NCBI GenBank assembly: GCA_030679145.1
Contig: JAUXTU010000046.1
Coordinates: 1-49,771, forward strand
Reading direction: 5' to 3'
Origin: Bacteroidota bacterium
GTDB lineage: Bacteria > Bacteroidota > Ignavibacteria > UBA10030 > UBA8401
DNA length: 49,771 bases
Part shown: piece after piece, positions 2,381 to 5,047 of the stretch
Numbering within the stretch: position 1 is the stretch's first letter
Layout: every line of letters starts with the position of its first letter
Translations under genes and position numbers: made by a program
Notes under the pieces: model-generated
The model's database searches: none
What the model was told of the DNA's origin: nothing
Seen by the model: the letters and a program-made list of their open reading frames with translations, nothing else

Positions 2381-3115
2381 TTAAGACAGTGAATTCAAGA
2401 ACGGAAACCATTTTGCAAAATAACTTGCAATGATCGTTAAATAATTTGTGATCATTAAAATCCCAACTGCTACCAACATTACTCCGCCGACAACTTCAAT
2501 TGTATGGAAATGCTTCTTTATACGATTGAAGGCATTGAAAAATTTATTAATGCTTATTGCTGTCAAGAAGAACGGGATGCCTAAACCTAACGAGTAGACA
2601 AAAAGCAACACAATTCCTTGCAGTACTGTATCTTGCTGGCTGGCAATAGCAAGTATTCCTGCTAAAACCGGACCGATACATGGTGTCCAACCAAATGCAA
2701 AAGCCGCGCCAACTGCGAAAGAGCCTAAAATCCCGAGTTTTTTCTCTTGTAAGTGAAATCGTTTTTCATAATTGAGAAAACCAATCTTAAAAATCCCAAT
2801 CATATGAAGGCCAAAAACGATAATGATAGCCCCGGCAACCTTGCTGATGAGATTAAGATTATCATTCAATAATTGTCCGATGGAGGTAGCGGCGGCTCCC
2901 ATAAGAACAAAAATGAGTGTGAAACCAGAGATGAACACCAACGAGTTGATCATTACTGCGCGGGCAGCAGATTTATTATCACCTTTAATGTCATCAAGTG
3001 TATGTCCCGATATGAAAGAGATATAACCGGGAATAATTGGGAGTACGCACGGCGAAATAAATGAGAGTAAACCAAAAATAAAAGCAGTGAGAAGATTGAT
3101 ATTATCAGACAGCAT
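2381..3115 (-). CDS. ccdA: CcdA-family thiol-disulfide transport membrane protein
   Basis: This 244-residue inner-membrane protein belongs to the CcdA/DsbD-beta family, which passes reducing equivalents from cytoplasmic thioredoxin across the membrane to periplasmic partners such as cytochrome c maturation thioredoxins. About six hydrophobic segments are visible. The two conserved cysteines sit in the standard places: SPCVLPIIPGY (first helix, about residue 22) and GWTPCIGPVL (about residue 145). The length is typical of CcdA without extra thioredoxin domains. The start is supported by AAGGAG 11 bases upstream of the ATG. The next gene upstream encodes a sensor with a CxxCH heme motif, which needs c-type cytochrome maturation, but the two are separated by a terminator and need not be co-regulated. 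Confidence 0.88.
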   Translation of the reverse strand: MLSDNINLLTAFIFGLLSFISPCVLPIIPGYISFISGHTLDDIKGDNKSAARAVMINSLVFISGFTLIFVLMGAAATSIGQLLNDNLNLISKVAGAIIIVFGLHMIGIFKIGFLNYEKRFHLQEKKLGILGSFAVGAAFAFGWTPCIGPVLAGILAIASQQDTVLQGIVLLFVYSLGLGIPFFLTAISINKFFNAFNRIKKHFHTIEVVGGVMLVAVGILMITNYLTIIASYFAKWFPFLNSLS

Positions 3116-3304: not shown

Positions 3305-3334
3305 ACAAAACCCGCTCTCTCAAGCGGGTTTTGT
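3305..3334 (-). terminator. Rho-independent terminator after the sensor kinase gene
   Basis: A near-perfect hairpin ACAAAACCCGCT / AGCGGGTTTTGT with a 6-base loop lies 28 bases past the stop codon of the kinase gene. On the minus strand the descending arm ends in a T-containing tract. The A/T-flanked stem could also work in the other direction. Confidence 0.75.
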
Positions 3335-3361: not shown

Positions 3362-4816
3362 TTAGATCGGCAGAGTTATCGCGTACGTCGTTCCTTTTCC
3401 TTCTTCGGAAACGAGAGTAATTTTTCCATTCTGTTTTTCAATGATCTTTTTTGCAAGAGCAAGATCTAATCCCACGCCGCCGCTTTGAACAACCTTAACG
3501 AACGGCTCGAATATCTTTTCTTGAAATGCTTTCGGAATACCGGCGCCATTATCTATAATTCTGATATATAATTTCCCCGCATCGGAATCTGTTTCCAAGC
3601 GAATAAATCCGCCTGCCGGAACATAGTTTGCAGCGTAGTTAATAATATTATCTAAGGCGCGCGCAGTTCTGTTCGCATCGATAATTGCTTGTCCATCGAA
3701 TTTTGCGGTGACATCAAATCGTATCTGCTGCTTTTCCAGATCGGATTTTACTATTGTTGCAACAGTGCGGGTAAGTTTACCAATGCTGGAAAGTTTTTTA
3801 TCCACCTTAATGTCTCCGGAAGTGAAATCAATCAAATCCTGCGTCATTCGATTGACGAGCTGTGCAGATTCTTTTGCCTCATCAAGCAATTCGTTCTTTT
3901 TAACTTCATCGAGAGTTGATTTTTTTATCTCGTCAATTGCATTGACAATATCTTTGATCGGTGAGCGGAAATCTTGAACGAGAGAAGCAGCAACTTGTCC
4001 AACGGTCGATATCCGTATTGCGTCCTGACTTTCTTTTAATGCACTTCTCATTTGCGTAAAGGCGCGTGCTAACGTTCCAACTTCATCATTGCCGTCAGGA
4101 AGTTTAAGATCATCGCTCATATTTCCTTTGCCGATTTCTTTGGTTGCATTTTCAAGTTTTTTCAATGGTGACTGAACTAAAGTTCGGAAGAAAATAAATC
4201 CGATGAGAATAATGAAGAAAGCCACGCCGCCGGAGATCATTGCTGATCGTTGTGAATTTTGTTGATTTGCATAAATGATCTTTGTTAAAGGGAAGTCAAG
4301 ATGTGCTACGCCAAGAACATCTCCAATCTGCACTTCATGACATCGTTGGCATTTTTTCTCGGCTATAAATGGAATCATTGCTTTAAAATCATCGCCAAGC
4401 CGGATCCATTGTTGTTTTCCTGTTGCAAGCACCTGATTGCCATATTGATTATCGTATTCGCCTTTGTTGTTCGCCAACAAAACACGTTCACCCAAACGAT
4501 GAACACGAGTGCTATCCATAAAATCTTCTGCGAGTCGCAATCGGCTTGTATCAATTCTGATATAGAGATCGTTCAAATTGGCGACCTGTTGAACTTTTTC
4601 AAGATATTTGTCGTTTACCATTTGGCTTTCAATCATCATGTTCACAAGAGATTCTTTCACGATCATTGCTTTTTGCAATGCAGATTCAAGAGCCTGCTCC
4701 TGCATCTGTTTTTCTTGATTCTCATTGTTCAAATAGACGCTGAGGGCAATTCCAATAATAAAAATTGGGACAAATGTTAGAAACAATTTTGTTGAAATGC
4801 TAAGATTACGAAACAT
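3362..4816 (-). CDS. Membrane sensor kinase-like protein with periplasmic CxxCH and no phosphoacceptor His
   Basis: About 484 residues counted from the ATG at 4816, which has GGAG five bases upstream; a longer in-frame start at 4858 lacks such a site. Order: TM helix (about 7-28), periplasmic domain (about 30-190) with a CQRCH c-type heme motif (Cys156, Cys159, His160) as in DUF3365/Tll0287-like sensors, second TM (about 193-211), HAMP linker (about 212-265), a coiled dimerisation segment, and a C-terminal HATPase_c domain. The ATPase boxes look intact: ALDNIINYA (N box), DNGAGIP (G1), FEPF (F box), GGVGLDLALAKK (G2). In the dimerisation helix the usual H-E/D-x-R-x-P is replaced by VQDFRSPI: Gln281 (codon CAA) stands where the phosphorylated His should be. 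It probably senses redox state or a gas, but how it signals is unclear. No response regulator gene is adjacent. Confidence 0.82.
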   Translation of the reverse strand: MFRNLSISTKLFLTFVPIFIIGIALSVYLNNENQEKQMQEQALESALQKAMIVKESLVNMMIESQMVNDKYLEKVQQVANLNDLYIRIDTSRLRLAEDFMDSTRVHRLGERVLLANNKGEYDNQYGNQVLATGKQQWIRLGDDFKAMIPFIAEKKCQRCHEVQIGDVLGVAHLDFPLTKIIYANQQNSQRSAMISGGVAFFIILIGFIFFRTLVQSPLKKLENATKEIGKGNMSDDLKLPDGNDEVGTLARAFTQMRSALKESQDAIRISTVGQVAASLVQDFRSPIKDIVNAIDEIKKSTLDEVKKNELLDEAKESAQLVNRMTQDLIDFTSGDIKVDKKLSSIGKLTRTVATIVKSDLEKQQIRFDVTAKFDGQAIIDANRTARALDNIINYAANYVPAGGFIRLETDSDAGKLYIRIIDNGAGIPKAFQEKIFEPFVKVVQSGGVGLDLALAKKIIEKQNGKITLVSEEGKGTTYAITLPI

Positions 4817-4978: not shown

Positions 4979-5047
4979 CGTCATTCCCGCATGTTTTAGG
5001 CGGGAATCTATTCTATGGATGTCCGATAGGAGCGTTCGGGCATGACG
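4979..5047. repeat. 69-bp intergenic repeat (CGTCATTCCCGC...CGGGCATGACG), copy 1
   Basis: The element starts CGTCATTCCCGC and ends CGGGCATGACG, so its ends are inverted copies of one another. It contains two potential hairpins: TTCCCGC with GCGGGAA, and an imperfect GTCCGA/TCGGGC pairing. A second copy of exactly the same length lies at 47055-47123. It sits in the 3' untranslated part of the argG message, ahead of the terminator. Confidence 0.8.

Follow-up and report, generated by a model that had tools for sequence, protein, structure and literature searches.

A conserved lineage of predicted heme-sensing pseudo-histidine kinases in Ignavibacteria lacking the phosphoacceptor histidine and an N-box asparagine

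The 49,771-nucleotide stretch of Bacteroidota bacterium contig JAUXTU010000046.1 analyzed here (the window) codes for a 484-aa membrane protein, P0001 (open reading frame [ORF] at positions 3362-4816, minus strand; all parts of the gene given below lie on this strand), that is organized like a sensor histidine kinase and is very probably a true pseudokinase, as judged from its sequence and those of its relatives. In the alignments, both the phosphoacceptor His and the metal-coordinating Asn of the N box are lost clade-wide, and the kinase fold and the sensor motif are kept. The best overall explanation, to which we assign a probability of roughly 0.6, is that P0001 is an orphan membrane pseudo-histidine kinase exerting heme-driven allosteric control over a partner; its signaling probably depends on contact with another protein and not on phosphorylation. 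A search of 98 genomes of the order assigned 16 to the pseudokinase clade, nine in the family that includes the window (f1: G000, which is the window's own genome, G001, G002, G003, G006, G007, G010, G015, and G018) and seven in a sister family (f6: G053, G061, G063, G067, G069, G072, and G073). Many genomes resemble metagenome-assembled genomes (MAGs), and contig ends truncate 5 of the 16 copies; fragments from G001, G015, and G073 do not reach residue 281, and the other 13 copies do.

The first departure from a conventional kinase is at the phosphoacceptor site, where the preliminary description had read SLVQDFRSPI with Gln281 replacing His. The CAA codon is present as described (positions 3974-3976), and the substitution is conserved in the closest relatives: all seven own-family orthologues covering the site have Gln and all six in the sister family have Arg (SLIRDFRAP), with His in none of these 13 copies and only in paralogues and other kinases, including 22/22 aligned His-type kinases (16 c-heme relatives and 6 further kinases). 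Because Gln is fixed in the own-family orthologues, it is more than a chance occurrence. A misread base or a recent mutation at this codon would fit with CAA being one base from CAT and CAC, but both are ruled out, with a negligible residual probability, by recurrence of the Gln in seven independent assemblies and by the Arg of the sister family. Orthologues with His, which the preliminary description had named as a refuting outcome, were not observed. Moreover, the codons vary synonymously (CAA and CAG for Gln; CGC, CGA, CGT, and AGG for Arg), which excludes sequencing error and indicates that the amino acid itself is held.

The second departure is in the ATPase half, and the earlier view that all of its boxes are intact does not hold, as the second Asn of the N box (NxxxNA) is replaced by Tyr394 (TAC, positions 3635-3637). 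Tyr394 aligns with the same Asn in comparisons with both the His-type paralogue and solved kinases; the position is Tyr in 14/14 aligned clade members, with a fragment from G001 providing a 15th copy, versus Asn in 22/22 His-type kinases, and the Tyr codons also vary synonymously (TAC and TAT). This Asn is reported to coordinate the metal ion of ATP-Mg (PMC10017428). The first N-box Asn is kept in P0001 and the G1 box is kept in f1; among the five readable f6 members, one is without the G1 Asp and two are without its second Gly. The G2 box of P0001 is GVGLDL versus GTGLGL, and this is not counted as evidence of inactivity because a same-genome kinase with a His box (L018) has GIGLDL. The residue four positions after the phosphoacceptor His (His+4) is usually a phosphatase Thr or Asn in active HisKA enzymes; it is Ala in 8/13 clade members and in none of the 22 kinases compared with them (16 heme His-type and 6 others), which counts against a retained phosphatase role.

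P0001 could in principle still be a catalyst, either becoming phosphorylated on another residue or phosphorylating a partner in trans from an ATP-bound state. Its catalytic and ATP-binding (CA) domain (residues 345-484; positions 3365-3784) scores well as HATPase_c (PF02518, 2.4e-20) and has an intact predicted fold, a G1 box, and the first N-box Asn; in addition, the chloroplast kinase CSK is described as still binding ATP with altered boxes (PMC5054060). However, the clade-wide loss of the N-box Asn makes both routes less likely, and the phosphoacceptor site differs between the sister families, as expected if no chemistry occurs there; a catalytic role is thus quite unlikely. Among the readings offered in the preliminary description, regulation without phosphotransfer, perhaps via another kinase, fits these data, and use of a different residue has become less likely with the loss of the Asn.

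The remainder of the protein is predicted to be architecturally complete, with a transmembrane (TM) helix at about residues 11 to 29 (4730-4786), an extracytoplasmic domain of ∼160 aa (residues 30-189; 4250-4729), a second TM helix at about residues 191 to 211 (4184-4246; both helices by hydropathy), a HAMP domain (residues 214-261; 4034-4177; PF00672, 1.4e-12), and a degenerate HisKA-like dimerization and histidine phosphotransfer (DHp) domain (residues 263-335; 3812-4030), followed by the CA domain. The HisKA match (2.7e-4) is below the Pfam gathering cut-off (21.4 versus 26.9 bits). There is no PAS family among the nine Pfam hits, and the sensing part consists of a single extracytoplasmic domain plus HAMP. 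An AlphaFold model built from an 11-row alignment has a mean predicted local distance difference test (pLDDT) score of 57.5, with the CA domain mostly at 85 to 93, and Foldseek matches it to ordinary kinase cores, including HK853 (TMt 0.85 to 0.86, root mean square deviation 1.5), with the DHp part of the model having low pLDDT. The DHp and CA folds together are predicted to be complete.

The extracytoplasmic domain contains CQRCH, a c-heme attachment motif that the preliminary description had correctly placed in the sensor part (residues 156-160; 4337-4351) and that is kept in all 14 clade members covering it. A CxxCH between two TM helices makes c-heme very likely, and the domain would bind it covalently. 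Weak PDB-profile and Pfam matches place the domain as a divergent c-type-heme sensor of the sCache_heme (GSU0935-like) kind. In a profile search of the PDB with 18 sensor domains, the top two matches, both weak, were 3b42 (E value, 0.0067), which we take to be GSU0935, and 3b47 (E value, 0.034); among the 18 aligned sensors, 17 weakly match PF21563 and 9 weakly match PF11845. P0001's own domain is below the curated cut-offs of both sCache_heme entries, PF11845 and PF21563 (17.7 versus 27 and 12.3 versus 24.1 bits), and an AlphaFold model of the sensor alone is unusable (mean pLDDT, 41). Structure 3b47 has been linked to GSU0582, and according to a 2026 preprint the members of the sCache_heme family are Cache domains that bind c-heme covalently and resemble nitric oxide (NO) sensors when fused to signaling modules (PMC12889525). 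That the heme ligand or signal in P0001 may be NO or redox state is a guess from these relationships. The nitrous oxide reductase gene nosZ (PF18764) does not co-occur with the pseudokinase (4/16 carriers versus 13/82 noncarriers, P = 0.47), and a link to PF02335 was not used, as a post hoc class gave 8/16 versus 8/82 (P = 5e-4) and all strong hits gave 8/16 versus 25/82 (P = 0.15). The same genome also codes for a 725-aa protein (G000:C57; L107:1020-3197, plus strand) whose sensor part contains three CxxCH motifs and which also has a HAMP-like segment; it is possibly a multi-heme cyclase, its nucleotide cyclase domain having been judged by eye.

The pseudokinases are a long-lived clade under purifying selection, conserved across two families. 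In a tree from which columns 281, 394, and 451 and the G073 fragment were omitted, the 13 long sequences group together as a single clade (100/100) inside a broader set of c-heme kinases, and the Gln and Arg types form two sides of one branch (100/100 and 99/97). Whole-gene ratios of nonsynonymous to synonymous substitution (dN/dS) are 0.09 to 0.26 in the 6 of 10 Gln-type orthologue pairs for which dS can be estimated, the other four being saturated. In G000, G002, and G007, which are the compared genomes with both a Gln-type copy and the His-type paralogue, the pseudokinase is more conserved than the His-type paralogue in both DHp (identity of 0.81 versus 0.65) and CA (0.70 versus 0.55), although the compared His copies may not all be strict orthologues, as the tree places that of G007 beside one from f6. 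Beyond the order, 391 genomes of the class (an even but incomplete draw) contain one further relative, G172, which is His-type, and a search at 1e-60 of 395 genomes from the phylum (likewise an even, incomplete draw, in which no other known carrier was listed) returned only the window's own genome and G025. The G025 match is confined to the sensor and HAMP; this protein (L110:1195-3075, plus strand, family f5) has a similar c-heme sensor and HAMP fused with a kinase core of another kind, which contains a canonical His (QLSHEINNP).

The proposed mechanism is that P0001 would be unable to take up a phosphoryl group from ATP or to pass one on; heme input would instead drive movement of HAMP and DHp, and this movement would alter a partner's activity by direct contact. 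The partner would most likely be another sensor kinase, engaged via a conserved upper DHp four-helix bundle as in RetS-GacS, RocA-CovS, and ChrS-HrrS, with a response regulator, as in DivL-DivK, being less likely. Response regulators dock in known kinases on the DHp stretch that follows the phosphoacceptor site. In the clade, DHp is nearly invariant up to the Pro after site 281 (0.94 for Gln types and 0.90 for Arg types) and variable past it (0.52 and 0.49), and this location of the conservation favors a kinase partner, a mechanism that we put at even odds; RetS offers a precedent in blocking GacS autophosphorylation (PMC4866733). A DivL-like alternative, in which the degenerate core senses or sinks a response regulator by phospho-specific binding without catalysis, draws on the closeness of DivL, which is the closest solved pseudo-histidine kinase by sequence (4q20; E value, 1.7e-14, or 7.8e-33 with a profile), ranks sixth by fold in Foldseek, and is reported to bind DivK~P while being devoid of kinase and phosphatase activity (PMC4211667). 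We consider it unlikely, as few parts of the clade's proteins are as poorly conserved as the regulator-docking stretch, and the authors of the DivL study describe its N, G1, F, and G2 boxes as intact (PMC4211667), whereas P0001 is without the N-box Asn. A fuller proposal, that a lineage-specific c-heme (possibly NO) receptor has turned its whole transmitter into a noncatalytic device for retuning kinases by heterodimerization under nitrosative or redox stress, is tentative and somewhat short of even odds.

Several observations weigh against heme-driven control of a partner by an orphan pseudokinase. No partner has been identified, no genome having been searched exhaustively for one, and the most obvious candidate, the His-type c-heme paralogue described below, was not found in 9 of the 16 carriers, including G018, which is estimated to be 100% complete. 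The contrast within DHp is modest, with the His-type set Hf1 having a similar but weaker one (0.77 versus 0.48). CSK retains ATP binding despite changes to its H box and CA domain (PMC5054060), so that lost nucleotide binding in P0001 is something we only infer. Finally, of the 11 copies that do not run into a contig end, 3 are damaged: the G003 copy has a broken frame and a repeated stretch, the G010 copy has a deletion with a shifted frame following the CxxCH, and the G072 copy has an in-frame TAG (copies at L040:2-1184, L041:5001-6390, and L050). This could mean either that the gene is decaying in some lineages or that the MAGs contain errors. These lesions, and the finding of the gene in 16 of the 98 order genomes and not in the other 82, would suit a lost kinase on its way to becoming a pseudogene. 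Such general decay is nevertheless very unlikely, as eight full-length copies, 45 to 80% identical, are intact across the two families, dN/dS is well below 1, and the kinase core is better conserved than that of the active paralogue.

Under heme-driven control of a partner kinase, the first candidate partner in the genomes having it would be the His-type c-heme kinase, represented in the window's own genome by G000:C116 (L002:1483-3033, minus strand). It has the same architecture as P0001, including the CxxCH, and is 33% identical over its full length and 36% over the C-terminal 350 residues, but it has canonical SIVHDFRTPM, NIINNA, and GTGLGL motifs. C116-like paralogues are present in 10 of the 98 genomes, 7 of which also have the pseudokinase, and co-occurrence is significant both overall (7/16 carriers versus 3/82 noncarriers; Fisher P = 7.5e-5) and within f1 (5/9 versus 0/13; P = 0.005), neither value being corrected for ancestry. 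Because nine carriers are without it, the paralogue cannot be the sole partner, and an obligatory heterodimer with it is rejected as a universal rule. C116-like kinases themselves co-occur with nosZ (6/10 carriers versus 11/88 others; Fisher P = 0.0016, again not corrected for ancestry), a hint that they belong to nitrogen-oxide respiration. G010 has a second, partial His-type kinase copy with an in-frame TGA (L036; G010:C189:9584-10279, minus strand) beside an intact one. A different kinase, G000:C113 (L108:1905-3542, minus strand), is a conserved orphan with relatives in most genomes of the order; by eye it has a cyclic-nucleotide-binding-like part and a GAF-like part followed by SAVGRMASTIIHDIKNPM, and it could be a partner of the pseudokinase.

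The pseudokinase is an orphan at its locus. The f1 copies are flanked by arg genes on one side and by genes for a 2-oxoacid:ferredoxin oxidoreductase (kor) on the other, several genomes also having a pirin-like gene there, and the f6 copies are at a different locus with a ∼575-aa gene and glycosyltransferase-like genes as neighbors; these names were mostly assigned by eye, with kor and ccdA identified by Pfam in the window. No response regulator was recognized by eye beside any copy, no domain search of the neighbors having been run. In the window, an intrinsic-terminator-like hairpin (3305-3334, minus strand) directly follows the pseudokinase gene, which argues against an operon partner, and beyond it is a CcdA/DsbD_TM-like cytochrome c biogenesis gene (2381-3115, minus strand; PF02683, 1.9e-25). 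This ccdA adjoins the pseudokinase gene in the window and in L041, and it is ruled out as a fixed partner, as the next recognizable gene in L039 and L070 is kor (by eye) and L038 has only a degraded ccdA-like stretch (L038:5246-5563, plus strand). The latter is just downstream of an intact pseudokinase gene, such that the neighbor decays and the pseudokinase stays. A short inverted-repeat-like element (cattcccgc ... gcgggaat / gcatgacgtt) is present at window positions 4984-5045, between argG and the pseudokinase gene.

Few natural bacterial pseudo-histidine kinases have been characterized (DivL and RocA in our literature searches), and here a long-lived lineage keeps its sensor and kinase fold despite the loss of two separate catalytic residues, with a heme input that is testable and, in the His-type paralogue of the same architecture and cell, a ready internal control. 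Such a lineage would make it possible to study which function keeps a kinase fold under selection after catalysis has been lost. Our literature searches found no published description of the lineage, which is no proof of absence. Like P0001, alphaproteobacterial DivL has the HisKA and CA fold with a phosphoacceptor His replaced across a clade, but it has Tyr there, PAS sensors, and boxes described as intact (PMC4211667), whereas P0001 has Gln or Arg, an extracytoplasmic c-heme-type sensor with HAMP, and no N-box Asn. P0001 has neither the Tyr or Ala at the phosphoacceptor site nor the PAS sensors that define DivL, and by domain make-up it is not a DivL orthologue. RocA of group A Streptococcus is similarly a membrane sensor-kinase homologue and pseudokinase that interacts with CovS, but its phosphoacceptor position still carries a His, which is dispensable, and six TM helices are predicted for it, with no heme motif mentioned in the available excerpt of its description (PMC7028121). 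Chloroplast CSK is a redox-linked modified histidine kinase with CA-domain changes and no detected autophosphorylation, in which the His has given way to Glu in plants and to either Tyr or Gln in green algae; unlike P0001, it is a plastid protein that binds an ATP analogue, and the changes described in it are in G1 and G2 rather than the N box (PMC5054060). In Corynebacterium, a ChrS pseudokinase allele is a catalytically inactive heme-signaling kinase that acts through its paralogue HrrS, but it is a laboratory-selected frameshift, and the heterodimers reported are of the native kinases and not the truncated form (PMC9491836). On the sensory side, the sCache_heme proteins (DUF3365/Tll0287, GSU0582/GSU0935) share the extracytoplasmic CXXCH domain between two TM helices followed by HAMP (PMC12889525), although P0001 matches them weakly, under Pfam cut-offs, and has no axial Cys beyond the two of its CxxCH. 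Pseudo-histidine kinases are therefore already known, and what is new here is that a c-heme-type sensor is combined with a transmitter that has Gln or Arg in place of the phosphoacceptor and has lost the N-box Asn.
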